Origin: an uncultured Chromatiaceae bacterium | Lineage (GTDB): Bacteria > Pseudomonadota > Gammaproteobacteria > Enterobacterales > Alteromonadaceae | Length of the DNA: 12,074 nt | Direction: 5' to 3' | Assembly (NCBI GenBank): GCA_946482325.1 | Contig: CAMLRA010000128.1 | Coordinates: forward strand, 1 to 12,074 | Shown here: one piece after another, positions 1-12,074 of the stretch | Position numbering within the stretch: position 1 is the stretch's first letter | Layout: each line of letters starts with the position of its first letter | Position numbers and translations under genes: made by a program | The notes under the pieces: generated by a model | What the model saw: the letters and a program-made list of their open reading frames with translations, nothing else | What the model was told of the DNA's origin: nothing | The model's database searches: none

Positions 1-64
1 GACACACTAGCTTCAGGTGTTAGCGCTTCGCGGCGTGGGGGTTCGAGTCCCCCCCTAGGCACCA
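1..64 (+). tRNA. tRNA-Leu(CAG), 3' part; 5' end lies outside the window
   Basis: The 3' part of a class II (long variable arm) tRNA is visible. The anticodon stem CTAGC (7-11) pairs with GTTAG (19-23) around the loop TTCAGGT, giving anticodon CAG at 14-16. A long variable arm with a CGC/GCG-type stem follows (about 24-36). The T arm is GGGGG-TTCGAGT-CCCCC (37-53), the acceptor 3' strand is CCTAGGC (54-60), the discriminator is A61 and CCA is encoded at 62-64. The anticodon arm matches the enterobacterial leucine tRNA reading CUG, as I remember it. About 20 bases (acceptor 5' strand and most of the D arm) lie before position 1. Confidence 0.95.
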
Positions 65-67
65 AAT

Positions 68-100
68 AATCCAGCTTTATGCTGGATTTTTTGTTTTTTA
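68..100 (+). terminator. Rho-independent terminator after tRNA-Leu
   Basis: An 8-bp stem AATCCAGC (68-75) / GCTGGATT (81-88) encloses the loop TTTAT and runs straight into a T-rich tract (87-99, interrupted by one G). It starts four bases after the encoded CCA, so it is the natural end of the tRNA transcript. Its distal arm and T tract are also the first part of the dispersed repeat at 81-132. Confidence 0.88.
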
Positions 101-132
101 CGTCCCTGTAAAAAATTGCTTCGCAACCAGCC
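81..132 (+). repeat. Dispersed intergenic element, copy 1
   Basis: This 52-bp stretch aligns without gaps to 9613-9664, with 46 of 52 bases identical. It consists of a terminator distal arm, a T tract, an imperfect palindrome (TTTTTTAC at 94-101, GTAAAAAA at 108-115) and the fully conserved block TTGCTTCGCAACCAGCC (116-132), which begins with a TTGC/GCAA mini-hairpin. Weaker similarity continues to about 160: CCAAAAA (131-137), GGAC (146-149) and TTTTT (156-160) recur in the same order in copy 2. It contains no ORF. It resembles the REP-like or terminator-linked intergenic repeats of gammaproteobacteria. I do not recognise a named family. Confidence 0.75.
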
Positions 133-227
133 AAAAATCCCTGCAGGACCCTCCGTTTTTCTGCTGCTGTCTTGTTGTTGTCATCTCAATAGCCGACACT
201 GGTTCTTGCATAGAACACGGAGGCTCA

Positions 228-719
228 ATGTCTGTTCAAACCATTTATCTGTTACGTCATACCAAAGCTGAAGATCGTTCTGTGCTGCGTGCTGATGTGG
301 ACCGTTGCCTGGTGGAAAAGGGCAGGCAGCAGGCGTTGCGGATTGGTGCTTTTATCCGCCGTCAGCAATTGGAGCCTCAACTGGTGTTGACCAGTCCGTA
401 TCCACGCGCGTTGCAAACAGCGATGCTGCTGGCCGCCAGTGCTGATTTGTCCTGTGATGTGACAGAGGCTTTATGGTTGTCGCATGGCACTGCAGCGCAG
501 ACACAATATCAGCAGCTGTTGCAGGCATTGCCAGACTGGCCGGCGCGGACTTTATTAGTCGGCCATGAACCAGAATTGTCCGCATTATTGGCGCTCTGTC
601 TGGATCAGCCCGAGTCAGCAGTACAAATCAAAAAAGGCACTTTGTTGTGTTTACAGTACGCGCCTGCAACCGGTTTTCGGCTGCAATGGCTGTTGCCGTG
701 TCAGTTGCTGCGTTCATAG
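228..719 (+). CDS. sixA: SixA-like phosphohistidine phosphatase (histidine phosphatase superfamily)
   Basis: This 163-aa cytoplasmic protein belongs to the short SixA branch of the histidine (phosphoglycerate mutase-like) phosphatases; E. coli SixA is about 161 aa. SixA removes phosphate from phosphohistidine on carriers such as the nitrogen phosphotransferase system. Visible catalytic-pocket elements are R10-H11 in LLRHTKAE (nucleophile His11), the arginine in LTSPYPRALQTA (R60) and the second histidine in VGHEPELS (H113). The usual RHG or RHA tripeptide reads RHT here. The ATG at 228 is supported by a strong GGAGG six bases upstream. The gene is alone between the tRNA/repeat region and a new promoter, so it appears monocistronic. 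The family call is firm; the exact substrate is inferred. Confidence 0.88.
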   Translation: MSVQTIYLLRHTKAEDRSVLRADVDRCLVEKGRQQALRIGAFIRRQQLEPQLVLTSPYPRALQTAMLLAASADLSCDVTEALWLSHGTAAQTQYQQLLQALPDWPARTLLVGHEPELSALLALCLDQPESAVQIKKGTLLCLQYAPATGFRLQWLLPCQLLRS

Positions 720-801
720 CGTCGGCGTTGATGAGGGGGCAGTGGCCAGATTTCCTGACTATCCCTGCTTGTCCCATTTAAGCCCGTCCAGTCACAAATA
801 A

Positions 802-834
802 TTGACAAAATCCATGTTGTTAGCGTAAAGCTAA
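802..834 (+). promoter_or_regulatory. Candidate promoter of the lipoprotein-peptidase pair, with a small inverted repeat
   Basis: A perfect -35 hexamer TTGACA lies at 802-807. Seventeen to eighteen bases further on, only a weak -10 (GTAAAG or TAAAGC, 825-831) is present. An inverted repeat TTAGC-gtaaa-GCTAA (820-834) covers the -10/start region and could be an operator or a 5' hairpin. Transcription would begin around 835-840, which argues against the in-frame ATG at 838 and for the start at 892. The 172-bp gap 720-891 holds nothing else that I can identify, including no clear terminator for the preceding gene. Confidence 0.45.
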
Positions 835-891
835 AGGATGCTTTTCTGGCTGCAGCCAGATAACAACAACAGCGATGGCCGGAGGTGTGTG

Positions 892-2067
892 ATGTGGCGA
901 TTGATCCTGATTTTAACTGCCCTGAGCCTGAGTGCCTGTCAGCAAATGCCGACTACAGCGGAGTCCGTTGCGCCTGAGGATTTGCTCAATAATCAGGCAT
1001 TTATGCCGGTGAATACCCAGATTGAAACCAAAACACAAATTTTTGCTTTGCCGGAAGCCCTCATTACTGCTGCCCGCCAGGACGTGCTGGCCTATGGCAT
1101 GCCGCGGGACCGTAGTCTGGCATTACTGAAGTTTATTTTCCGCGAACAACAAGACCCACTGCAGTATGTCAATAACGCGACACTCACAGCATTACAAACC
1201 TATGAACAACGCGAAGCCAATTGTCTGTCGTTAACCATTTTGTCTTATAGCCTGGCACGGGCTCTGGGTTTTCGTGCGCAATTTCAGGATGTACAGATCC
1301 CGGAGTACTGGATCACACGCAATGGCACCAGCGTGTTAAATGGTCACGTTAATCTGGTCGTGACGCCGCCTTATATGCAGACTCTGGCCAAAACCTTTAT
1401 CTCTTCAGATCACAATTTTCTGATTGATTTTGAACGTGCCGGTGGTTCACGCGAGCGGTTACCGGTGCGTAAAATCAGTGAGAACGACATTGTTGCGTTG
1501 TTTTATAACAATAAAGCGGCCGATGCGATGCTGACTCAGCAATTTGATTTGGCATATCGTTATTTGCAGGGGGCCGCCGAAATCGCGCCCGGAGTTGCCG
1601 CAACCTGGAATAATCTGGCCGTGTTATACCGGCAACGGCAAATGCCGGTTTATGCCGAACGCGCGTATTTGCAGAGTTTGAAGTTGGAACCGGAACATCC
1701 CAATACGATGGCGAATCTGGCCATTCTGTATGCAGCGATGGGGCGGCAGCAGGAAGCTGCGGCGCTTGAAGCCAAAGTGGAGCAAACCCGCTTACGCAAT
1801 CCGTATTATTTTGTCATGCAAGGCAATGAGGCGCTGAGTCAGCAACGGTTGGCCGATGCTGAACTGGCCTTTCACCGCAGTATCCGTTTACAGCCAAAAA
1901 TGTCCGAAGCGCTGTTTGGATTGGCTAAAGTGGCTATCATGCAGCATGACTATGCTGCGGCTACCAGTTACCTGCAACGCGCACGTTTGCATGCACCGGC
2001 CGGGGCCGACCGGCGCTTGTACGATCATAAAATTGAGATGTTAAATGCAGTGGCGCAGGCGGATTAG
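892..2067 (+). CDS. Lipoprotein with papain/transglutaminase-like region and TPR repeats
   Basis: This is a 391-aa envelope protein. The in-frame ATG at 838 would give 409 aa, but the ATG at 892 has GGAGG six bases upstream and begins a classic lipoprotein signal (MWRLILILTALSLSAC, lipobox LSAC, lipidated Cys16). Residues about 55-190 resemble a transglutaminase-like cysteine fold: Cys111 heads a helix (NCLSLTILSYSLARALG), with His152 (NGHVNLVV) and Asp179 (FLIDFERAGG) as possible triad partners. Residues about 200-390 hold several TPR motifs, for example around 237-268, 271-300 and 337-366. The last codons overlap the M28 peptidase gene by 23 bp, so the two are probably translationally coupled and both act outside the cytoplasm. 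No specific function is known to me. The catalytic role of the Cys/His/Asp set is inferred from spacing. Confidence 0.8.
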   Translation: MWRLILILTALSLSACQQMPTTAESVAPEDLLNNQAFMPVNTQIETKTQIFALPEALITAARQDVLAYGMPRDRSLALLKFIFREQQDPLQYVNNATLTALQTYEQREANCLSLTILSYSLARALGFRAQFQDVQIPEYWITRNGTSVLNGHVNLVVTPPYMQTLAKTFISSDHNFLIDFERAGGSRERLPVRKISENDIVALFYNNKAADAMLTQQFDLAYRYLQGAAEIAPGVAATWNNLAVLYRQRQMPVYAERAYLQSLKLEPEHPNTMANLAILYAAMGRQQEAAALEAKVEQTRLRNPYYFVMQGNEALSQQRLADAELAFHRSIRLQPKMSEALFGLAKVAIMQHDYAAATSYLQRARLHAPAGADRRLYDHKIEMLNAVAQAD

Positions 2068-3010
2068 CCTCGTTTTAGCCCTGAGCGCGTGCTTCGGGCT
2101 TGTGCCGTCAGCACGGGCAGCGACGCTGCAAGCGGTATCTGCACATGAAGCGCAGGCCTGGCAGGATTTGCAGCAATTAGCCGCAGATGACATGGCCGGG
2201 CGGTCGACGGGCAGTGCCGGCAGTCTGCTGGCACAGCAATATTTGCAAAGGCGTTTTGCCGCTTTGGGGCTGCAACCTATTGGTAACGATTATTTGCAGC
2301 CTTTTAGTTTTCATGAGGGTTTCAGTGAAAGGCACGGCGTCAATGTGCTGGGTTTGCGACCAGGCTGTGGCCAACCGCAGCGTTATATTGTCGTGACTGC
2401 GCACTATGATCATCTCAAACCGCGCGGAAAGAAGATTTTTAACGGCGCCGATGATAATGCCTCAGGGGTCGCTGGGTTGTTATATCTGGCGGCTCAAACG
2501 CAACAGAGCTGTCCGTTATATTCTTATTTGTTTTTGGCTACAGATGCCGAAGAGCTGGGCTTAGATGGCGCCAAAGCATTTATGGCCAAACCGCCGGTGG
2601 CGCCGGAGGCCATAGTGCTGAATATCAATCTGGATATGATTAGCCGCGGTGAAAGTAATCAGCGTTTATATCTGGCCGGCAAAAAGCAGTTACCGCAATT
2701 GACTCAGTTTGCCGAACAGGCAAAGACGCCGCTGAAGCTGACACTGGCGCACGACGGCCGGCAAAGTAGTTTGGGGCGGCGCAGTCAGCCGCCGGTCGAC
2801 TGGAGTAATGCCAGTGACCACGCGGTGTTTCGTAAAGCCGGTATTCCGTTTCTGTATTTTGGCGTTGATGTGCACCCGCAATACCACACGCCACAAGATG
2901 ACTGGCAACGCATTGATCCACAGTATTTCTTTGCTGCGCTGAGGCTGATTGAACAAAGCCGGCGCTGGCTGGAAAGTCTGCCGCCACAGACGCTGGAGCG
3001 TCCCCTATAA
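2045..3010 (+). CDS. Secreted M28-family zinc aminopeptidase
   Basis: This 321-aa protein is a probable exported di-zinc exopeptidase of family M28. An N-terminal signal peptide (MQWRRRISLVLALSACF, cleavage after PSARA near residue 25) sends it to the periplasm or outside. All M28 metal and catalytic positions can be seen: H120 and D122 in AHYDH, the bridging Asp in NGADDNASG (D136/D137), the base/ligand pair E169-E170 in TDAEELGLDGA, D197 in NLDMISR and H281 in YHTPQDD. The ATG lies inside the preceding lipoprotein gene (23-bp overlap), and the signal peptide starting right at this Met supports the choice. Its stop overlaps that of the opposing photolyase gene by 6 bp. Family assignment is strong; the peptide substrate is unknown. 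Confidence 0.9.
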   Translation: MQWRRRISLVLALSACFGLVPSARAATLQAVSAHEAQAWQDLQQLAADDMAGRSTGSAGSLLAQQYLQRRFAALGLQPIGNDYLQPFSFHEGFSERHGVNVLGLRPGCGQPQRYIVVTAHYDHLKPRGKKIFNGADDNASGVAGLLYLAAQTQQSCPLYSYLFLATDAEELGLDGAKAFMAKPPVAPEAIVLNINLDMISRGESNQRLYLAGKKQLPQLTQFAEQAKTPLKLTLAHDGRQSSLGRRSQPPVDWSNASDHAVFRKAGIPFLYFGVDVHPQYHTPQDDWQRIDPQYFFAALRLIEQSRRWLESLPPQTLERPL

Positions 3011-4534
3011 ATCCAGCAGCAACTGCGGCTGTTGCTTTTGTTTTGCAGATGTCGCCGCGCGACGCTCTGGCGGTCTTTTCCGGCTGGCGTGACGCTCGCG
3101 CACCGCTTCCCGGCCTTGTTGCCATTGTTGTTTTGCGTATCGGGCATGCCAGTCTTTTAATTTGTGACGGGCCTGACGGATGGCCTGCTGCAGGTCGACC
3201 ACCGGCGCCGGATAATCGACATCCAGCCGCATGCCATATTGCAGTTGCAGCGCCGGCGGCAATAACCAGGGCTGATGCAGCCATTCATTGGGTAGCCGCG
3301 ACAGTTCCGGGCACCAACGCCGGATAAATTGGCCTTGAGGGTCCTTCAACAGGCTTTGTTTCAACGGGTTGTACATCCGGTTGGGATTAATTGACGTGGT
3401 GCCGGCTTGCATCTGGATCTGCGGATAATGGATGCCGGGTTCATAGTCAGTGAAACATCGCGCCAGATGCAGCGCAACCGGCCGCCAGTCCAGCCACAAC
3501 TGGTAACTGGCGAAAGCCACTAACATGGCGCGGGCACGAAAATGCAACCAGCCGGTGGCGAGCAGACAACGCATCGCCGCGTCAATCATCGGGTAACCGG
3601 TTTCACCGCATTGCCAGGCCTGAAACAAACGCGGCTCAAACTGGTCACGCATGCCCTGATAAAGTGGATTCATCGGCACGAATTCAATTTGCGGCTCGTC
3701 TTCCAGCTTCTGCATAAAATGGCAGTGCCAGCGCAGCCGACTAAAGAACGCTGCGAGCGCATGTTGGTCGCGCCCTTCCGGCAATAGTTTGATCTGACGG
3801 TAAGTCTGTTGTTGCAGTAGCCTCAGACTCAGCTGACCGTAGGCGAGATAGGGGCTCAACCTGGAGCAGCTATGGCTGGCTTTGGCGGCTATTGAGATAT
3901 CACGTTGATAGTTTTTACTGCGGCTATGCCAGAATGACTGCAAAGTTGCATCGAGCTCGTCAGCCTGTTGGCAAAGTTGCGGTTGGCAGAGTGGCAATTC
4001 GCGACGCTGTGGAGCTTGCCACAAAGCTTGCGGCCAGGGCGCGTCCACAATCAGTGGTAACGACCTCGGGGCCTGAAAAGTCGGGCTTTTTAAAAAAGCA
4101 TCAGCCTGAAGGAACCATTGATCGCGGTCGTGCAGGTGACGCTGTACTGCGTGTTGGCGATATTGCCGCCAGGGCAGGCCCAACTCACGGCATAAACGCG
4201 CTACAGCCTGATCGCGCTGATAGGTCCATAAGTTACCGGTTTCCTGATGACTGACCATTTGCTGGACTGCAAATTCACGTGTCAGTTCCCGCAGTACCCG
4301 GCTAGCCGGACCACGCCGCACCAATAGCGGCTGACCCAGTGCTTTGAGCTGCTGATACAGCAAGTAGACGGCATCCTGATTAAACTGCCATTGCCGCAGC
4401 GAGGTATCTGGCTGCTGCCAATAATCCGGCTCGATGATATACACGGGCAGCACAGCGCCTTGCTGTGCGGCGAGTGCAAGCGGTTCGTGATCTTCCAGCC
4501 TTAGGTCGCGTTTAAACCACACCAAGGTCAGCAT
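3005..4534 (-). CDS. Photolyase/cryptochrome-family FAD protein, class-I-like proteobacterial clade
   Basis: This 509-aa flavoprotein is the last gene of the three-photolyase operon. The N-terminal Rossmann (photolyase) domain opens with VWFKRDLRLEDHEPLALAA. The C-terminal FAD-binding domain shows SRLSPYLAYG (224-233), TGYPMIDAAMRCLLATGWLHFRAR (about 312-335) and RMYNPLKQS plus FIRRWCPEL (386-411). Against E. coli PhrB, as I remember it, the NNGGWQW stretch carrying the FAD-proximal tryptophan reads HYPQIQM here. I recall that this DYEPGIHY-QMQAG-INP signature marks a distinct proteobacterial clade, so electron transfer or function may differ. The C-terminal 40 residues are strongly basic (ERHASRKRPPERR), possibly DNA-binding. 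Only 3 bp separate it from the Cry-DASH gene, with no strong ribosome site, so translation is probably coupled. DNA repair activity is inferred from the family. Confidence 0.87.
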   Translation of the reverse strand: MLTLVWFKRDLRLEDHEPLALAAQQGAVLPVYIIEPDYWQQPDTSLRQWQFNQDAVYLLYQQLKALGQPLLVRRGPASRVLRELTREFAVQQMVSHQETGNLWTYQRDQAVARLCRELGLPWRQYRQHAVQRHLHDRDQWFLQADAFLKSPTFQAPRSLPLIVDAPWPQALWQAPQRRELPLCQPQLCQQADELDATLQSFWHSRSKNYQRDISIAAKASHSCSRLSPYLAYGQLSLRLLQQQTYRQIKLLPEGRDQHALAAFFSRLRWHCHFMQKLEDEPQIEFVPMNPLYQGMRDQFEPRLFQAWQCGETGYPMIDAAMRCLLATGWLHFRARAMLVAFASYQLWLDWRPVALHLARCFTDYEPGIHYPQIQMQAGTTSINPNRMYNPLKQSLLKDPQGQFIRRWCPELSRLPNEWLHQPWLLPPALQLQYGMRLDVDYPAPVVDLQQAIRQARHKLKDWHARYAKQQWQQGREAVRERHASRKRPPERRAATSAKQKQQPQLLLDL

Positions 4535-4537
4535 GGC

Positions 4538-5911
4538 TTATTCAGCTCTGAGCTGTTGCAGATATTGTAGCCATTGCCACGCTTGCGGCTCGGACCATCC
4601 TGCCAGCGCATAAGGTTGATGCCGGTGATAGCCATTCTCTGCCGGACCTAACAGCAATTCGGTGAAATTGGCAGTAGGGTCGTATTCCAGGGCCTGTTTT
4701 AACGCATTAAAGCTACGCGGGGCCGAATACAAAGCGCCGGCAATATAAGCCCAGTTCCCCCAGTTACTGGCGACGTCATAATCCAGCAATTGTTGCTCAA
4801 ACCAGGCGGCGCCGTGGCGCCAGTCACAGCCGAGCTGAAACATCAGATAGCTCGCCACGTTTTGCCGGCCACGATTTGACATCCAGCCGGTTTGTGCCAG
4901 CAATTGCATATTGGCATCGATAAAAGGCAATCCGGTTTGGCCTTGCTGCCAGCGCAGCAACGCTTCGCCGGCCGCGCCTGCGCTACCGGGCACCTGATGC
5001 AGACCTAAACCGCCATGCCGGAAAAAAGCCAGTGGATGTTTGCGCTGCAAATGACGGAAATACTCGCGCCATAACAATTCAAACCGCAGCCAGTAGCTTG
5101 ATTCTGTCTGACCATATTGCTGTTCGTGTGCGCGGATCAACTGCCAGGCGCGTCGCACCGACACAGTGCCGCGACTCAGTGGCAATGACAAAAAACTCGC
5201 AAAATCTGCACCGATTAATGCATTGCGACTGAGCTTGTAATGAGACAAGTGCTGCTGCAGATACTGTGAAAAATCTGCCAGCGCAGCCGGCTCGCAGTGT
5301 TGCTGCCAACACGAGAAATGCGTAGGGAGCTGATGAGACAGCGCCACAGGCAGCGACTGGTCTGGTTCCGCCTGGGGTAAATCTGACAATTCAAGCGCGG
5401 CGGCTACCGACAATATTTTGTTCAGCGCCTGTGTTGAAGGTTGTATTTGCTGTGGCGGCAATACCAGCAGTTCAGGTTCTCTTTGCTGGCGAAATGCAGT
5501 GAAGCTGCGTGGCAGTGTATAAAGATCGGGCCTGAGTTTATCCGCCAATAATGAATTGGCATCCAGCCATTGCCAGTTGAGCCCGACTGCCCAACGATAC
5601 TCTTCCGGTGCCGTTGGCTCGGCAGCAACGACGTATTCCAGCTGATATTGCGCAAGCAGTTGGGATATGATCTCCGCCGGGTCGCCAACCCGCAGCAACA
5701 GTGGGATACCAATAGCCGCCAAACGCTGCTGAAAATCCCGTAATAAACCCAGCTGCAATTTCAGGCGTCGCGCACTGGCGCGATTAGGTCTGAACTGGCG
5801 CTGCGGCAGGATACAAACCGCCACGGCCGCATCAGCATTGCCCGGCAGGCTCAGCAACGGGTTGTCATCCAGCCGCAGCAAGTCGTTGCAAAACAGCAGA
5901 TAACGGCTCAT
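4538..5911 (-). CDS. Cry-DASH-like cryptochrome (divergent)
   Basis: This 457-aa flavoprotein is best placed in the DASH branch, whose members repair CPDs mainly in single-stranded DNA or act as blue-light sensors. The strongest marks lie in the FAD domain: GQTGLPFIDANMQLLAQTGWMSNRGRQNVASYL (about 324-356) and YDVASNWGNWAYIAG (378-392), which keeps the tryptophans near FAD. Departures from the family are clear. The N-terminal FRNDLR-type motif reads LLFCNDLLRLDDN. The FAD phosphate-binding FSPWLALG-type segment reads FLSLPLSRG (240-248). The usual DPR-RFN segment after YIAG reads ALYSAPRSFN. It overlaps the upstream FeS photolyase gene by 4 bp (ATGA), a typical coupled arrangement. It is an intact ORF, so it appears functional but unusual. 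Confidence 0.85.
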   Translation of the reverse strand: MSRYLLFCNDLLRLDDNPLLSLPGNADAAVAVCILPQRQFRPNRASARRLKLQLGLLRDFQQRLAAIGIPLLLRVGDPAEIISQLLAQYQLEYVVAAEPTAPEEYRWAVGLNWQWLDANSLLADKLRPDLYTLPRSFTAFRQQREPELLVLPPQQIQPSTQALNKILSVAAALELSDLPQAEPDQSLPVALSHQLPTHFSCWQQHCEPAALADFSQYLQQHLSHYKLSRNALIGADFASFLSLPLSRGTVSVRRAWQLIRAHEQQYGQTESSYWLRFELLWREYFRHLQRKHPLAFFRHGGLGLHQVPGSAGAAGEALLRWQQGQTGLPFIDANMQLLAQTGWMSNRGRQNVASYLMFQLGCDWRHGAAWFEQQLLDYDVASNWGNWAYIAGALYSAPRSFNALKQALEYDPTANFTELLLGPAENGYHRHQPYALAGWSEPQAWQWLQYLQQLRAE

Positions 5912-7431
5912 AGCTGCTCCAAATGGATTAGCAACTCTGCGGCTTTGGCGCGAAGCAGCTGTTGGTCGCCGGCTGATTTACGCCGCCATTGCTGATAGGT
6001 CAGCTGCATCCGGGCGTTATTGCCAAGCTTGTCTTCATGGCGGGCGATAAAATCCCAGTACAACGCATTAAAAGGGCAGGCGCGTTCGCCAGTGCTTTGT
6101 TTGACGTCGTAATCGCAGTGTTGGCAGTAATTACTCATTTTGGCGATGTAATTGCCGCTGGCCGCATAAGGTTTCGACGCCAACAAACCACCGTCGGCAA
6201 ATAACGCCATGCCGAGAGTGTTGGGCAATTCGACCCACTCATATGCATCGGCATACACCGCAAGATACCAGTCCGTTATCTCATCAACTGACAAACCGGC
6301 CAGTAAGGCAAAATTACCGGTCAGCATCAGCCGCTGAATATGGTGAGAGTAGGCGTGACGAATGGTATGACCGATGGCCTGCGACAGGCAGTTCATCCGG
6401 GTCTGCCCTGTCCAGTACCAGGACGGTAATGGCCGGCTGGCAGAAAAAAAGTTTTGCTGACGGTATTCAGGCATCTTTAGCCAATACAGGCCGCGCACAT
6501 ACTCCCGCCAGCCGATGATTTGCCGGATAAAACCCTCGGCGGCATTGAGCGGCACTAAACCGGCTTTCCATGCCTGTTCAACCTGCAGGCAAAGCCAGCG
6601 CGCGTCCAGTAAGCCGCAGTTGAGGTACATTGATACCAGACTATGAAACAAAAATGGCTCATCCTGACGCATCGCATCCTGATATTTGCCAAACAGCGGC
6701 AGCCGGTGCTGCAGAAAATGTAAAAAAGCGGCTCGGGCATCCTTGCCTGTCACCGCGAAAACAAACTGGTTTGCCTGTCCCATGTGACTGGCAAAATGCC
6801 GCTGTACTAAGGTGATCACGTCCAGGGTTATGGCATCAGGCTTAAAATCGGGTGCAGCCGGGATTTGCACCTCGGCCGGACAGGCCTGACGGTTCTCGGC
6901 GTCAAAATTCCACTGACCACCGGCCGGCGTATTGCCGTCCATCAGCAAGCCGGTGTAACGGCGCATTTCGCGATAAAAATATTCCATGCGGAAACTTTGC
7001 CGGCCATCTGCCCAGCGCCGGAACATGGCGTGGTTACAGATAAAACGGTCATCTTCAATTACATCTACCGGCAAGCCCAGCGTTTGTGGCCAGCTGGCGA
7101 CTTCTTGCATCAGTCGGTATTCAGCCAGTTCAGTGAGCCGCACCCGTTGCAACTGTGGTTGCTGCTGCAAAACCTGCTGCACAGCGGCCAGTAATGACGC
7201 TACTTGCTGGTCATAATCGACATAATGCACCCGATGCCCCTGCGCCTGAAGTGCCGCGGCAAAGTGACGCATGGCACTGAACAACAACACGATCTTCAGC
7301 TGATGATGCGGCGCATAATGGGCTTCGGCCGCAACTTCAGCCAACAGAATATGGTCACCCGGCTGGATGTCCCGCAATGAACTCAATGCCGGGCTCAGCT
7401 GGTCAGCAGTGATCAGAATAAGTGCTGCCAT
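5908..7431 (-). CDS. phrB: Iron-sulfur bacterial cryptochrome/(6-4) photolyase (FeS-BCP)
   Basis: This is a 507-aa member of the FeS-BCP group (deoxyribodipyrimidine photolyase-related proteins), which repair (6-4) photoproducts with FAD, a lumazine antenna and a 4Fe-4S cluster. Family marks are DRFICNHAMFRRW (128-140), RMEYFYREMRRYTGLLMD (148-165) and GGQWNFDAENR (171-181). Cluster ligands are visible as C348, C436, C439 and C452. Their spacing equals that of the four cluster cysteines of Agrobacterium PhrB as I recall them (350/438/441/454). The His pair in YSHHIQRLM (H363/H364) matches its active-site histidines with the same offset. I chose the ATG at 7431 over a TTG two codons upstream, because MAALILITADQL is the usual family N terminus. 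It is the first gene of the operon. Confidence in the family is very high. The symbol follows the Agrobacterium protein and is not E. coli phrB. Confidence 0.92.
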   Translation of the reverse strand: MAALILITADQLSPALSSLRDIQPGDHILLAEVAAEAHYAPHHQLKIVLLFSAMRHFAAALQAQGHRVHYVDYDQQVASLLAAVQQVLQQQPQLQRVRLTELAEYRLMQEVASWPQTLGLPVDVIEDDRFICNHAMFRRWADGRQSFRMEYFYREMRRYTGLLMDGNTPAGGQWNFDAENRQACPAEVQIPAAPDFKPDAITLDVITLVQRHFASHMGQANQFVFAVTGKDARAAFLHFLQHRLPLFGKYQDAMRQDEPFLFHSLVSMYLNCGLLDARWLCLQVEQAWKAGLVPLNAAEGFIRQIIGWREYVRGLYWLKMPEYRQQNFFSASRPLPSWYWTGQTRMNCLSQAIGHTIRHAYSHHIQRLMLTGNFALLAGLSVDEITDWYLAVYADAYEWVELPNTLGMALFADGGLLASKPYAASGNYIAKMSNYCQHCDYDVKQSTGERACPFNALYWDFIARHEDKLGNNARMQLTYQQWRRKSAGDQQLLRAKAAELLIHLEQL

Positions 7432-7471
7432 TAGCAATAGCGCCTTGATTTGTTTGGCATTTGGGGAAAAC

Positions 7472-7553
7472 TCGCTGCGAACTGGCGGATAACTGGCACT
7501 ACGCCAAAATTTTTTGATTGGATCAGCAATTCGCAGCGATTGGCTGATTTACA
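7472..7553. promoter_or_regulatory. Divergent control region between photolyase operon and sensor kinase
   Basis: The 128-bp gap 7432-7559 separates two divergent transcription units and is rich in symmetry. A perfect 10-bp inverted repeat, TCGCTGCGAA (7472-7481) / TTCGCAGCGA (7530-7539), lies 48 bp apart. The direct repeat AACTGGC occurs at 7480-7486 and 7491-7497, 11 bp apart and so on the same helix face. GATTGG occurs at 7516-7521 and 7538-7543. ATCAGC (7522-7527) mirrors GCTGAT (7543-7548). TTTACA (7548-7553) followed 17 bp later by TAGCTT is a weak candidate promoter toward the kinase. These could be operators for a light- or stress-responsive regulator. No known regulator motif is recognised. 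Confidence 0.45.
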
Positions 7554-7559
7554 ACCGCG

Positions 7560-8954
7560 ATGCTTTTCGCTAGCTTAAATTTTAATCTGGCAGGCGGCGG
7601 GGTTGACGTGGATCCTTTTGAGCATATTTTATTGGATGTGTCGGCATCGCCGCTGATTGACCTTGGCGCATGGGAGCAGGCCAGTCAGCTGATTTTGCAG
7701 AGTCTGCAAAAGGGCTTGGCCGTGCAGCGGGTCAGTCTGTGGCTGTACGACCTTGGTGATCAGAGTATGGTCTGTCAGTTGTTGCTTGATGGCGAGCGCT
7801 TCGCAACTGAACCGTTGCGCCTGCAGGCCAGCCAGTTCCCGGCTTATTTTCAGGCGCTGCGCCGCGAGCGTGCTATTGTGGCACATGACGCACGTGTCGA
7901 CCCGCAGACCGCAGAATTTCTTGATTATCTGCAAAACCATCAGATATTTTCCATGCTGGACCTCCCGGTTCGGCACTTGGGCAAAATGATTGGCATTATT
8001 TGTTGTGAACATACCCTCCGCTGCCGCCAATGGACTGACAATGAAGTCCGTTTTGCCGCCGCCATGGCTGATCAGGTCGGGCGTGCATTAAATGCTGACC
8101 GTTTCCTGAGTGCGCAAAGCCAGCTGGAGCAGCTGAACCTGCAGCTGGAGCAGAGGGTTGAGCAGCGTAGTCAACAGCTGGCGGACACTGATGAATTAGT
8201 GCGGCGCGCCCACCAGCAGATGGAAGCACAGGCCCGGCTCGCTACTTTAGGCGGCATTGTTGCTGGTGTGGCGCATGAAGTGAATTCACCGCTTGGTGTT
8301 GCACTGACAGCCAATACATTGTTGGAGCAACGGCTGCAGGACTTTATCTTTGGCATGCGTGAGCGGTCGATCAGTGCGTCGCAGGCGATGAGTTTATTAG
8401 TGCAAATGCATGAGAGTTCGCTGTTGGTGACTGCCAATTTGCAGCGCGCCCAGCGCCTGATGGCGCAGTTTAAAGAAACTGCGGCGCATCAGACCCGGGT
8501 GGAATCGGCGCCTGTGGCGTTTCGTCAGCTGGTGGTTGATTTGCTGGCCAGTCTGACGCCGGCAACACGGCAAGTTCCGGTGTTTCCCGATGTGTACATA
8601 GACCCCAATCTGACGCTCATCACGGCAGCAGATGTGTGGCTGCAAATTCTGACCAATCTGGTGCTCAATAGTTGCCTGCATGCGTTTAGCGGCACCGCAC
8701 ATCCGGCCATTAGTATCAGCGCCACGTTGAACGACCAGCATGAGCTGCAGTTTGTCTACAAGGACAATGGCTGTGGTTTAACTCCGCAGGTGCGCCAGCA
8801 GATTTTCGAACCGTTTTTTACCACAAAGCCCAATGCCGGCGGCACTGGTTTGGGCATGTCGATTTTAAAACAGCTGGTCGAGAAAAAACTTTGTGGTGAG
8901 CTGAAATTGCTGGAAGAGCCGGGGTTCGGCCTGCAAATTTGTTGTCTGGCCTGA
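7560..8954 (+). CDS. GAF-domain sensor histidine kinase
   Basis: This 464-aa protein lacks an obvious signal peptide or membrane span, so it is a cytoplasmic sensor. Order: GAF-type sensor domain (about 30-180), coiled coil (about 185-225), dimerisation/phosphoacceptor helix with H239 in GVAHEVNSPLG, and an ATPase domain with N box (NLVLNSCLHAF, 366-376), G1 (DNGCGL, 402-407), F box (FEPFFTTK, 416-423) and G2 (GGTGLGMS, 427-434). It has no receiver domain, and no response regulator is encoded in the window, so the partner is unknown. The ATG at 7560 has no clear ribosome site. An in-frame GTG at 7608 (MDPFEHILLD) follows a GGCGGGG stretch and would remove an AT-rich, promoter-like segment, so it may be the true start. 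It diverges from the photolyase operon, which makes a light or oxidative signal possible but unproven. Confidence 0.88.
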   Translation: MLFASLNFNLAGGGVDVDPFEHILLDVSASPLIDLGAWEQASQLILQSLQKGLAVQRVSLWLYDLGDQSMVCQLLLDGERFATEPLRLQASQFPAYFQALRRERAIVAHDARVDPQTAEFLDYLQNHQIFSMLDLPVRHLGKMIGIICCEHTLRCRQWTDNEVRFAAAMADQVGRALNADRFLSAQSQLEQLNLQLEQRVEQRSQQLADTDELVRRAHQQMEAQARLATLGGIVAGVAHEVNSPLGVALTANTLLEQRLQDFIFGMRERSISASQAMSLLVQMHESSLLVTANLQRAQRLMAQFKETAAHQTRVESAPVAFRQLVVDLLASLTPATRQVPVFPDVYIDPNLTLITAADVWLQILTNLVLNSCLHAFSGTAHPAISISATLNDQHELQFVYKDNGCGLTPQVRQQIFEPFFTTKPNAGGTGLGMSILKQLVEKKLCGELKLLEEPGFGLQICCLA

Positions 8955-8990
8955 TTGTCAGGCGGCAGCGACTACTGTCAGAGTTGTTAT

Positions 8991-9005
8991 TGTGATAGTG
9001 TCACA
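8991..9005 (+). promoter_or_regulatory. Putative Zur operator over an extended -10 (DUF2796 gene)
   Basis: TGTGATAGTGTCACA is a near-perfect palindrome. Its 13-bp core GTGATAGTGTCAC matches the gammaproteobacterial Zur-type consensus GTTATAnTATAAC at 9 of 12 fixed positions. The segment TGTGATAGT also reads as an extended -10 (TGn-GATAGT), so a bound repressor would block RNA polymerase. Transcription would begin near 9006, about 40 bases before the ATG at 9047. The 8955-9046 gap holds nothing else that I can name. Zur control of DUF2796/ZrgA genes is known in Vibrio; here it is inferred. Confidence 0.55.
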
Positions 9006-9046
9006 TCTTTTCTCAGCCTGATGGCGGGTTTATGTGGAGATTAGAC

Positions 9047-9577
9047 ATGCGCAATTTGGTAAAAGGGTTATTGTTGTGCATAGCTACGGGGCCGGTATTC
9101 ACTGCAGCCTGCGGGGAACCCGGCCATGAAGCACATGGTGCCCATTTGCATGGCGAGGCTCAGCTCATGCTGGCAACCGACGGCGGACTGCTGGAAATAA
9201 TGCTTGAAAGCCCGGTGGGCAATTTGCTTGGTTTTGAACATAACCCCGGCACTGCAACGGAACAGCAAGCCTGGCAGCAACAACAAGCCTTGTTAAAAAG
9301 CGGACAGTGGCTGCAACTGCCGTCGTCAGCCCAATGTGTATTGCAACAGCAGCAGCTGGAAGACCCATGGGCCAAAGCCGGGCAGCACGCCGATATCAGC
9401 ATCAGTCTGAGTTATCAATGTAGTGCAGCTGAATTACTGAATGAGGTGAAAGTCATATTGTTCACAACAGCCGCTGACTTGCAGCAAATCGACGTGCAAT
9501 GGGTCAGTGGCGGCCAGCAGGGCGCGGCTACTTTGAGCGCAAAACAGCCGGTGCTGCAGTTACCCGGCACCGAATAG
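9047..9577 (+). CDS. zrgA: DUF2796 / ZrgA-like periplasmic zinc-locus protein
   Basis: This 176-aa exported protein has a signal peptide (MRNLVKGLLLCIATGPVFTAA). The ATG at 9032 would add five residues but lacks a ribosome site, whereas the ATG at 9047 has GGAGA six bases upstream. The mature start GHEAHGAHLHGEAQL (histidines 27, 30, 33, 35) and the LGFEH motif (61-65) are typical of DUF2796. This family includes ZrgA of the Vibrio ZrgABCDE zinc-uptake system. C97 and C125 may form a disulfide. The long His/Asp-rich loop often present between these cysteines is almost absent here (one His, H114). Cys22 follows the signal (TAAC), but the lipobox is poor. It is separated from the ABC genes by an opposing gene yet shares a similar upstream operator with them. 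Confidence 0.85.
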   Translation: MRNLVKGLLLCIATGPVFTAACGEPGHEAHGAHLHGEAQLMLATDGGLLEIMLESPVGNLLGFEHNPGTATEQQAWQQQQALLKSGQWLQLPSSAQCVLQQQQLEDPWAKAGQHADISISLSYQCSAAELLNEVKVILFTTAADLQQIDVQWVSGGQQGAATLSAKQPVLQLPGTE

Positions 9578-9591
9578 AAGCAGTTGTCCCC

Positions 9592-9629
9592 AAAACAAAA
9601 AACACAGCAATAGCTGTGTTTTTTGTTTT
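9592..9629. terminator. Bidirectional terminator between convergent genes
   Basis: This is a perfect 17-bp inverted repeat: AAAACAAAAAACACAGC (9592-9608) and GCTGTGTTTTTTGTTTT (9613-9629) around the loop AATA. It has a GC-containing tip and T-rich runs on both strands, 14 bases after the DUF2796 stop and before the stop of the opposing DUF3299 gene at 9725. It can end transcripts from either side. Its right arm is the start of repeat copy 2. Confidence 0.9.
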
Positions 9630-9664
9630 CTACATCCATGTAGAAAATTGCTTCGCAACCAGCC
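9613..9664 (+). repeat. Dispersed intergenic element, copy 2
   Basis: This is the second copy of the 52-bp element at 81-132, with six differences. Its palindrome is better than in copy 1: TTTTCTACAT (9626-9635), CC, ATGTAGAAAA (9638-9647). Two of the six differences are a matched pair (T to C at 9630 and A to G at 9643) that keeps the stem paired. The block TTGCTTCGCAACCAGCC (9648-9664) is identical. Weaker similarity continues to about 9696 (CCAAAAA at 9674, GGAC at 9687, TTTTT at 9692) after a 9-base insertion (9665-9673). The remaining gap to 9724 shows nothing else. Confidence 0.75.
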
Positions 9665-9724
9665 TGTGGCTGTCCAAAAACGTTCCGGACATTTTTGTGT
9701 TTTGGCGCCACCGCTTTCACTGAT

Positions 9725-10336
9725 TTACTCGTAAACGTACTCGCTGATTTTGTCGACTTTCAGGCTATAAGCGGAATTGGCCAGGTCATGGCTCATCGTA
9801 TCCGTGGTCATAGTGCCTTCGATCCAGAATGGGTTGTAAATCAGGTCGGCTTTTAAGTTTTTGGCGCCACTGACATAGACAATCTGGTTTGGTGGCGGCG
9901 GTGGCACGTGGATACAAGCGCCGAAATAGGGCACCAGAAAAAATGCAGTGATGTTCTGGTCAGCGTCGTATTCAATCGGCACGACAAAACCCGGTAATTT
10001 CACTTTGCGGCCGTTCAGTTCAGCACGCACGTTGGCTGACGACATCACATCGGCCCAGGCTTTCATCGATGGGTCATTACTGGCATTAAAGTTTTTGTTG
10101 ATTGCAGAGCCGGCGCCTTCGCCGCCTTCATGACTGACTTCTGGCAAGGCTTCCATTTTTTGTAAGTCAGCATCCGGTAATAAATCTGTCCATTCCAATT
10201 CTATGACTTTGCTTTTATCTGCCGGCAGGCTGCGCGTTGCAGGCGCCTGTTCAGCGGTTTTTGCAGTTTCGGCAGCCATCGCTGGCGCAGATGCGACCAG
10301 TGCCAGAATAGTTCCTATTAACAACGGTTTGAACAT
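9725..10336 (-). CDS. DUF3299 periplasmic protein of the zinc ABC locus
   Basis: This 203-aa exported protein has a clear signal peptide (MFKPLLIGTILALVASAPAMA, cut near residue 21). An Ala/Thr-rich linker precedes a DUF3299 domain (about 45-203) with LPGFVVPIEYD (114-124) and FFLVPYFGACIHVPPPPPN (132-150). C141 and H143 in GACIHVPPPPP are the obvious candidates for metal or redox contact. DUF3299 proteins are commonly found with DUF2796 and MacB-like ABC genes, which suggests a periplasmic accessory of the same transporter; the biochemical role is not known to me. Upstream, GGAAGAAG lies about seven bases before the ATG. The gene runs opposite to its presumed partners, sharing its upstream region with the ABC operon and converging on the DUF2796 gene. 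Confidence 0.85.
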   Translation of the reverse strand: MFKPLLIGTILALVASAPAMAAETAKTAEQAPATRSLPADKSKVIELEWTDLLPDADLQKMEALPEVSHEGGEGAGSAINKNFNASNDPSMKAWADVMSSANVRAELNGRKVKLPGFVVPIEYDADQNITAFFLVPYFGACIHVPPPPPNQIVYVSGAKNLKADLIYNPFWIEGTMTTDTMSHDLANSAYSLKVDKISEYVYE

Positions 10337-10357
10337 TGGAGCTTCTTCCCGACTATA

Positions 10358-10371
10358 TGTTATAAAATCAC
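10358..10371 (+). promoter_or_regulatory. Putative Zur operator over an extended -10 (ABC operon, divergent DUF3299 gene)
   Basis: GTTATAAAATCAC (10359-10371) has a perfect left Zur half (GTTATA) and a 4/6 right half. It is identical to the site at 8992-9004 at 9 of 13 positions, including the right end TCAC. Preceded by T, it also forms an extended -10 toward the ABC genes (TGT-TATAAA, 10358-10366). The distance from the TG to the GTG start at 10415 is 57 bp, against 56 bp at the other site. It lies 22 bp before the DUF3299 start on the other strand, so one site could control both directions. Confidence 0.5.
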
Positions 10372-10414
10372 GGTTTTTCCCATCATATCATTATTCAAAG
10401 GGCTGCTTGTCGCC

Positions 10415-11116
10415 GTGGATCTGAATATTCCCGCAATTGAACTCAAAAATCTGCGCCATCAATGGCCGGGGCAGGCGTTTTGTCTGCAGATCCCGGCGCT
10501 GACTTTGGCGGTTGGACAACATCTGTTTATCCGGGGAGCTTCGGGCTCCGGCAAAACCACCTTACTGAATCTGCTGTGTGGAGTGCTGAGCATCCAGCAG
10601 GGCGAAATCCGCTTGGCAGGTGAGCTGCTGCAACCCAATTCAGCGGCCAAACGTGACCAGCTGCGCGCCCGCCGGATCGGCGTGGTGTTCCAGCAGCTTA
10701 ACCTGATCCCGTATTTGTCGGTGCTGGACAATGTGCTGCTTGGCCAGGCGTTTAGTGGCAAGCCGGCAGACACTGCACGGGCAAAGCAGTTGTTGCAGGC
10801 GCTGCAATTGCCTCAGGATCTTTGGCAGCAAGCCGCTGCGGCACTGAGCGTTGGTCAACAGCAGCGGGTTGCCATCGCGCGGGCTTTGCTGGGCAAGCCA
10901 ACGTTATTAATCGCAGACGAACCGACTTCTGCACTGGACGCCGATAACCGCGATGCTTTTATGCGGGTGCTGTTACAGGAAGCCAATGCGGCCGGGAGTA
11001 CCGTGATTTTTGTCAGCCATGATCAGGCGCTGGCCGGTTATTTCCAGCATCAGCTGGATATGGGCCGGCTTAGCGATGGCGTCGTGGCCGTGCGGGGAGA
11101 AACAGCATGTTGTTGA
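10415..11116 (+). CDS. ABC transporter ATP-binding protein (MacB/LolD-like, zinc locus)
   Basis: This 233-aa cytoplasmic ATPase should drive the FtsX-like permease encoded next. Motifs in order: Walker A GASGSGKT (41-48), Q-loop VFQQLNL (Q93), signature LSVGQQQR (144-151, Val where LSGGQ has Gly), Walker B TLLIADEP (163-170), D-loop SALD (172-175) and H-loop SH (H202). It belongs to the MacB/LolD-type group. Translation starts at GTG 10415. No strong ribosome site is visible, although AAAGGG lies about 12 bases upstream. Its end overlaps the permease ATG by 10 bp, implying coupling. By context with DUF2796 and DUF3299 it fits the ATPase of a ZrgABCDE-like zinc system; the exact cargo is inferred. 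Confidence 0.9.
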   Translation: MDLNIPAIELKNLRHQWPGQAFCLQIPALTLAVGQHLFIRGASGSGKTTLLNLLCGVLSIQQGEIRLAGELLQPNSAAKRDQLRARRIGVVFQQLNLIPYLSVLDNVLLGQAFSGKPADTARAKQLLQALQLPQDLWQQAAAALSVGQQQRVAIARALLGKPTLLIADEPTSALDADNRDAFMRVLLQEANAAGSTVIFVSHDQALAGYFQHQLDMGRLSDGVVAVRGETACC

Positions 11117-12074
11117 AATTAGCCCGGCAAAGTCTGTGGAGCCGGCGGGGCACCGCCTGGCTGACCTTGTGTTCTTTGATCATCTCGCTGAGCCTGTTAC
11201 TCGGCATTGACCATTTGCGCCTGGAAGCCAAACGCAGTTTTACCAGTACGGTTGCCGGCACTGATTTGATTGTCGGCGCCCGTTCCGGCCAGCTGAATTT
11301 GTTGCTGTACACCGTGTTTCGCATCGGCAATGCCACCAATAACATCAGCTACGCGCATTATGAGCAAATCAGCAAGCACCCGCAGGTGCGCTGGGCTATC
11401 CCGCTGGCGCTGGGCGATTCGCATCGTGGTTTTCGTGTGCTCGGTACCAACACTGACTATTTCCGCTATTTCCGTTACGGCGAGCAGCAGTCGTTGCAGT
11501 TAGCGGCCGGGCGTGAATTCAGCACTGTGTATGAAACCGTGCTCGGCGCGGATGTGGCGAAAAAACTCGGTTATCAACTCGGGCAGGAAATTGTGTTGTC
11601 GCACGGTGTCGGCAAAGTCAGTTTCAGTCAGCATAAAGACCAGCCATTTACCGTGGTCGGGATTCTGGCACCGACCGGTACGCCGGTTGACCAGTCGGTG
11701 CATGTCAGCCTGACGGGGATTGAAGCTATCCATCAGGGCTGGCAAAACGGTGCGCCTGCCATGCGTAAACCCAAAACTGTGTTGTCTGAGGCCGAGCTTT
11801 CGGCGCTTAAGCCGACAGTGCTGACCGGCGCTTTGCTTGGACTTAAATCTAAAGTGGCGACTTTTGCTGTGCAGCGGCAAATCAATGAATTTAAGGCTGA
11901 ACCTTTAACCGCGATTTTACCGGGCGCGGCGCTGGCAGAGCTGTGGCAAATGCTGGTACTGGTGGAAAATCTGTTGCTGGTGATCACTGCGCTGGTGTTG
12001 CTGGCAGCCTTAATTGGCCTGACCACCACTTTATTGGCAGCGCAACGGGAGCGGGCGCGTGAACTGGCGATCCT
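11107..12074 (+). CDS. FtsX/MacB-like ABC permease, 3' end beyond the window
   Basis: The frame stays open from the ATG at 11107 to the window edge (322 full codons). It opens with MLLKLARQSLWSRRGTAWL and a membrane helix (about 17-34), as in MacB-type permeases. A large periplasmic MacB-PCD-like domain follows (about 40-270), with typical strands such as GTDLIVGARSG, GREF and FTVVGILAPTGTPVD. The second membrane span (about 281-310) then begins and leads into the FtsX core (AAQRERARELAI). The remaining helices lie outside. It overlaps the ATPase gene by 10 bp. It is the membrane partner of that ATPase, probably in a DUF2796/DUF3299-linked zinc system. No frameshift is seen in the visible part. 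Confidence 0.88.
   Translation, partial: MLLKLARQSLWSRRGTAWLTLCSLIISLSLLLGIDHLRLEAKRSFTSTVAGTDLIVGARSGQLNLLLYTVFRIGNATNNISYAHYEQISKHPQVRWAIPLALGDSHRGFRVLGTNTDYFRYFRYGEQQSLQLAAGREFSTVYETVLGADVAKKLGYQLGQEIVLSHGVGKVSFSQHKDQPFTVVGILAPTGTPVDQSVHVSLTGIEAIHQGWQNGAPAMRKPKTVLSEAELSALKPTVLTGALLGLKSKVATFAVQRQINEFKAEPLTAILPGAALAELWQMLVLVENLLLVITALVLLAALIGLTTTLLAAQRERARELAI

Follow-up and report, generated by a model that had tools for sequence, protein, structure and literature searches.

Three photolyase-family genes in series

We analysed a stretch of 12,074 nucleotides (nt), called here the window (contig CAMLRA010000128.1, positions 1 to 12,074), from an uncultured Rheinheimera-like gammaproteobacterium whose named close homologues are proteins of Rheinheimera, Arsukibacterium, Alishewanella and Alkalimonas. 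Its minus strand carries three intact open reading frames (ORFs) in series, in the order A, B, X, and all three belong to the cryptochrome/photolyase family. The genes and their junctions, both read from the sequence, are as follows.

Positions 5908..7431, minus strand: gene A, predicted FeS-type bacterial (6-4) photolyase (FeS-BCP, PhrB type), 507 amino acids from ATG, first in the putative operon
Positions 5908..5911, minus strand: A/B junction, a 4-nt overlap, ATGA
Positions 4538..5911, minus strand: gene B, Cry-DASH-type protein, 457 amino acids
Positions 4535..4537, minus strand: B/X junction, a 3-nt gap after the TAA stop of gene B
Positions 3005..4534, minus strand: gene X (gene C), uncharacterised cryptochrome/photolyase subfamily, 509 amino acids

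For gene A a TTG in frame at 7437 could also serve as the start; most of the 120 homologues listed have 507-510 amino acids. A first-pass annotation of this DNA had described a tightly packed operon of three different photolyase subfamilies, and the overlap and the gap agree with the packing it proposed. The subfamilies also proved distinct, genes B and X by falling into separate clades of a phylogenetic tree and gene A by its match to PhrB. Tandem duplication was rejected, since the genes represent three separate branches, as the annotation had held. The synteny is conserved as well: five relatives (L001-L005) carry the same three families in identical order and strand, so the arrangement is not a chance one, and no more than 8 kb spans X, a DASH-type gene and an FeS photolyase gene in 17 of the 31 X-bearing genomes of the order described below. 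From this packing and conservation, genes A, B and X are most likely one transcription unit.

Genes A and B resemble known photolyase types

Gene A matched PF04244 at 257 bits (cut-off 22) and PhrB of Agrobacterium (4dja) at 587 bits over residues 1-504. Its cysteines C348, C436, C439 and C452, which we take to be the ligands of the FeS cluster, do not vary among 15 homologues and align with cysteines of 4dja. On this kinship gene A is assigned to the FeS-type (6-4) photolyases, as had been proposed. Gene B was likewise placed where the annotation had put it. In our photolyase tree, which was built without rows for eukaryotic (6-4) photolyases, animal cryptochromes (CRY), class II, SPL or FeS-BCP proteins, it falls within the DASH clade, comprising 15 rows including Synechocystis 1np7, with support of 100/99. 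Its best PDB matches are 6kii (204 bits) and 1np7 (198 bits), and its top-scoring model is the DASH model TIGR02765, at 287.4 bits and thus below the cut-off of 317.05.

Gene X forms a clade of its own

The product of gene X comprises the domains PF00875 and PF03441, and its AlphaFold model has the complete family fold with a predicted local distance difference test score (pLDDT) of 92.3. No NCBIfam model matched X above its own cut-off; PRK10674 gave 158 bits (cut-off 506) and TIGR02765 gave 144.6 bits (cut-off 317). In the tree X belongs to a clade of its own, with 19 rows and support of 100/100, which lies outside the class I/III/plant-CRY branch and outside the DASH clade. In sequence X comes closest to DASH proteins among PDB entries. 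An assignment to Cry-DASH was rejected on the tree position and the TIGR02765 score. Similarity to the eukaryotic-type (6-4) and animal cryptochrome group, judged from PDB matches, was no higher than to other classes. Residues F332 and A336 of X presumably sit where the active-site His pair of that group would be.

The active site was compared with that of E. coli Phr by alignment, in which the positions of E274, N341, M345, N378, W382 and W384 all hold other residues in X. The window's X has R266, F332, A336, I373 and M375 in place of E274, N341, M345, W382 and W384. Among 60 X proteins, R266, W269, H272, F332, H369 and M375 are invariant, and A336 is found in 59. The position on the N5 side of flavin adenine dinucleotide (FAD), N378 in E. 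coli Phr, is His369 in all 60. Where E. coli Phr has the FAD-proximal W382, X proteins have Ile, Val, Met, Ala and similar residues, and in 59 of 60 there is no Trp at the other positions from 366 to 380, leaving aside position 370, which is itself aromatic in 59 of 60. X proteins mostly retain the residues of the distal triad (W350 in 60/60, W307 in 57/60).

These data bear on the lesions that, in one reading raised by the first-pass annotation, a cassette of this kind might cover, namely (6-4) photoproducts, cyclobutane pyrimidine dimers (CPDs) in single-stranded DNA and, through a class-I-like third gene, CPDs in double-stranded DNA. The third part of that set is not supported. Membership of X in class I or III was rejected on its separate clade and on the replacement of the catalytic and FAD-proximal residues of E. 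coli Phr, and 29 of 31 X genomes encode an additional PF03441 protein that scores as a class I/III type. As judged from its sequence, X is most likely a flavoprotein of a separate and widespread subfamily, with an active site that is invariant yet unlike that of any class compared. A sister of the X clade was observed on a Nostoc plasmid (L122:2998-4542); it retains the FAD-proximal Trp but carries Asp where E. coli Phr has N378, which makes its active site an intermediate one.

X recurs with photolyases of several kinds

The distribution of X was determined in an unselected sample of 197 genomes of the order, in which X was called at 342 bits or more and the next matches lay below 220 bits. 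X occurs in 31 of these genomes and PF04244 in 64, and the two co-occur in 29 of the 31 X genomes, against 10.1 expected (Fisher p 9e-15, uncorrected for kinship). A DASH-type gene is present in 28 of the 31 and a class I/III-type gene in 29, both types having been set by PF03441 score and profile range rather than by a tree, with one 74-bit fragment (G144) excluded. In six of the 31 X matches (G103, G039, G169, G110, G143 and G082) the aligned region includes one or two stop codons. In a second sample, covering 299 genomes of the phylum, X was found above 370 bits in 24.

The 17 genomes of the order that have X, a DASH-type and an FeS gene within 8 kb show three arrangements: DASH-X-FeS (12), FeS-DASH-X (2) and an FeS plus class I/III-type pair divergent from DASH-X (3). 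Because the same gene set occurs in different orders, a functional bond beyond inherited synteny is suggested.

We then compared 81 loci, consisting of the window and the best 80 of at least 590 relatives from a scan of genome contigs; these loci are related and partly redundant. Another photolyase-family gene lies within 2 kb of X in 44 of the 81, and two such genes lie there in 19. The two-partner loci comprise DASH with FeS in 10, NewPHL-like with FeS in 6 (one of which, L070, rests on a weak 105-bit match) and class III with FeS in 3. Six of the ten DASH-FeS loci are the window and L001-L005. The class III partners have Agrobacterium PhrA as their best match (438 bits). The NewPHL-like proteins are about 400 residues long and carry their FAD domain on the N-terminal side; the name is provisional, based on a putative match to the published inverted topology and on the position of PF03441 in the protein of L028 (residues 89-236 of 413). 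Thus the partner of X varies by lineage, and X with an FeS photolyase recurs. In Rhodobacteraceae and some other genomes, a NewPHL-like protein was observed in the place of Cry-DASH beside X (L028:2076-3314, L039, L049, L052, L057, L026 and others).

Few other neighbours of at least 90 residues are kept in several lineages. The chief one is a flavin amine-oxidase-like protein, seen near X in six loci of different lineages (L055:10522-11502, L007:2215-3261, L033, L032, L035 and L061), which is possibly an electron or flavin partner of X. One of the seven members of neighbour cluster 4 (L071) resembles a shadow ORF and was dropped. The C-terminal extensions of P0074, P0076 and P0068 contained no Pfam domain. 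In 35 of 80 loci a smaller protein, DUF2256 (PF10013), is encoded next to X or to one of the photolyase partners, no more than 3 kb from X. It is absent from the window and from L001-L005, and is present elsewhere in the genomes of those five relatives. In the order sample it co-occurs with X in 30 genomes, against 9.3 expected (Fisher p 6e-18, likewise uncorrected for kinship). This Cys-rich protein of 45 residues (e.g. L119:4142-4279) was observed in 34 of 35 X genomes, compared with 59 of the 197 genomes of the order.

In Deinococcus, X is joined to a repair enzyme. In D. aetherius (L117:3992-6313) a protein of 773 residues begins with X and carries a uracil-DNA glycosylase (UDG) domain at its end. 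X and UDG also share a single open frame in D. gobiensis (L120:5001-7262), where the annotated ung begins inside the X part, and in two further Deinococcus plasmid records the X match coincides with an 'ung' annotation.

A predicted RpoE-ChrR promoter precedes gene A

Two features lie upstream of gene A.

Positions 7500..7525, minus strand: TGATCC-N16-CGTA, a site resembling promoters of the RpoE-ChrR (ECF11) type and lying 68 nt ahead of the gene A ATG
Positions 7560-8954, plus strand: GAF-domain histidine kinase gene, divergent, beginning 128 nt upstream of the operon and adjoining its putative promoter

A looser form of the site, TGATC-N17-CGTA, precedes gene A in the window and in all five relatives (L001-L005). 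Across the 81 loci (1.27 Mb) this form occurs at 15 sites, 9 of which are within 250 bp before an ORF of the family. Other spacings were found before a family gene in 0 of 2 (N15), 0 of 7 (N16), 0 of 1 (N18) and 1 of 20 cases (N19). The strict form TGATCC-N15-17-CGTA showed no overall enrichment in the loci (9 sites, against 4.4 in shuffles, which reached up to 12). The signal is positional, in that N17 sites concentrate just before family genes and other spacings do not. ChrR was detected above cut-off in the genomes of all five relatives.

In Shewanella, mapped RpoE2 promoters share the boxes and spacing of TGATCC-N16-CGTA, and the predicted RpoE2 regulon includes photolyase genes (PMC4336711). 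In V. cholerae, photolyase-family genes are up in blue light, and a ChrR/sigma-E-dependent gene set has a similar motif (PMC5241685). From the promoter-like site, we predict that the operon is under extracytoplasmic function group 11 (ECF11; RpoE-ChrR) control.

A conserved light-sensor role for the GAF histidine kinase was considered and rejected, as the gene is in no neighbour cluster of at least four loci. At the other end of the operon, an M28 peptidase gene runs towards X, and the two genes share 6 nt at the end of X. Positions 9032-12072 of the window encode a ZrgA-like zinc-uptake protein, a DUF3299 protein and an ABC transporter along with its membrane protein; homologues of these genes are also close to X in L001-L005.

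Proposed role of the operon and of X

We consider it probable that the locus is a photo-oxidative-stress photorepair operon, which would combine the repair of (6-4) photoproducts and of single-strand CPDs with a third, uncharacterised enzyme, X, that would also act in photorepair. Blue light or singlet oxygen would free an RpoE-type sigma factor from ChrR, as the promoter-like site suggests; such release is known in Shewanella and Vibrio. The sigma factor would start transcription near 7495, and a single mRNA would carry genes A, B and X, in keeping with their packing and conservation. By homology, gene A would repair (6-4) photoproducts and gene B would repair CPDs in single-stranded DNA. X probably acts in photorepair on a lesion or DNA context outside the reach of A, B and the ordinary class I enzyme. 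A repair role for X is favoured on three grounds: its active site is altered but invariant, it recurs with four kinds of photolyase, and it is fused to UDG in Deinococcus.

Several observations weigh against this proposal. The Fisher values for co-occurrence ignore the kinship of the genomes. X is located away from DASH and FeS genes alike in 9 of the 31 X genomes, and no other family member lies within 2 kb of X in 37 of the 81 loci, although some of these contigs end near X. The UDG fusion was seen in Deinococcus only. A generic scan for sigma-70 promoters and terminators did not rise above chance (2 against 3.1 expected, and 5 against 6.2), and such elements were rejected. Finally, the loss of photolyase catalytic residues could equally fit a sensor or a non-photochemical protein.

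The first of these alternatives, in which X would serve as a light sensor or regulator of the cryptochrome kind, in an operon for both sensing and repair, appears rather unlikely. The positions of E274, N341 and M345 are changed in X, some of them also in Arabidopsis CRY1 in the same alignment, and the invariant His369 on the N5 side of FAD is a further point in its favour. The recurrent partners of X, however, are repair enzymes and not signalling genes, and since one fusion partner is a glycosylase as well, the repair reading is preferred over a sensor. In addition, no output domain was found in the window's X by domain search, and the histidine kinase beside the operon falls in none of the neighbour clusters of at least four loci. 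We regard as improbable the second alternative, in which X has no photochemistry of its own and binds lesions or partner photolyases (docking, flavin handling or antenna). The replaced catalytic residues, the lost FAD-proximal Trp and the physical linkage of X with several photolyase classes would accord with such a protein. On the other side, X also occurs without a linked photolyase, in the 37 loci noted above, and with most of the distal triad retained and an aromatic residue at position 370 in nearly all X proteins, another electron path in X is possible. That X is a divergent but ordinary CPD photolyase is very improbable, given its fully supported clade, the replacement of E274, N341, M345 and W384, and the further class I/III-type gene in nearly all X genomes.

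Within the photorepair reading, a more specific and distinctly speculative idea, which we think has a small chance of being correct, is that X founds a new functional photolyase class. An Arg, two His and a Met would replace the Glu/Asn/Met/Trp set, and the enzyme would repair a cytosine ultraviolet product, such as deaminated or cytosine-containing dimers or Dewar forms of these. If true, this would explain the Deinococcus fusion, in that a restored uracil would be removed at once, and would also account for the retention of X next to (6-4) and single-strand CPD photolyases, the three enzymes forming a fixed photorepair kit.

Relation to known systems and significance

Among the closest published arrangements is that of Synechococcus sp. 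PCC 7335, a UV-B-inducible operon in which photolyase genes overlap as in the window; unlike the window it has two genes, which encode a photolyase and a putative CPD/(6-4) enzyme related to class II (PMC9649867). Its authors present the two-photolyase operon as the first of its kind and were aware of just two previous cases of a photolyase in an operon, each with a non-photolyase partner. The RpoE2-ChrR regulon of Shewanella oneidensis (ybgA-phrB, SO_4169) resembles the window in having photolyase genes behind TGATCC-N16-CGTA, but neither a three-photolyase operon nor X is mentioned in the available part of that paper (PMC4336711). In Great Lakes Nitrospira, an FeS-BCP gene adjoins a second member, of an 'uncharacterized CPF-related family', which differs in having a FAD domain and a C-terminal region in which no known domain occurs (PMC9239080). 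Compared by description only, this member in our reading fits the NewPHL-like proteins rather than X. X may itself be on record under another name: a 'DASH-like' group in a 574-protein tree, given without a function in the available part, could be X when compared by description, as the best PDB relatives of X are DASH proteins (PMC9178010). No three-photolyase operon was found in full-text searches of an open-licence library, a scope outside which most subscription papers lie, and no paper in that library combined 'Rheinheimera' with 'photolyase' or 'DUF2256' with 'photolyase'.

Photolyases are usually studied singly. A recurring cluster with a constant, uncharacterised partner X suggests that bacteria treat photorepair as a kit, and the predicted RpoE-ChrR control would tie this kit to the singlet-oxygen response. 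The cluster also points to a large subfamily, X, present in 24 of 299 genomes of the phylum, whose conserved active site is unlike that of any class in our comparison.
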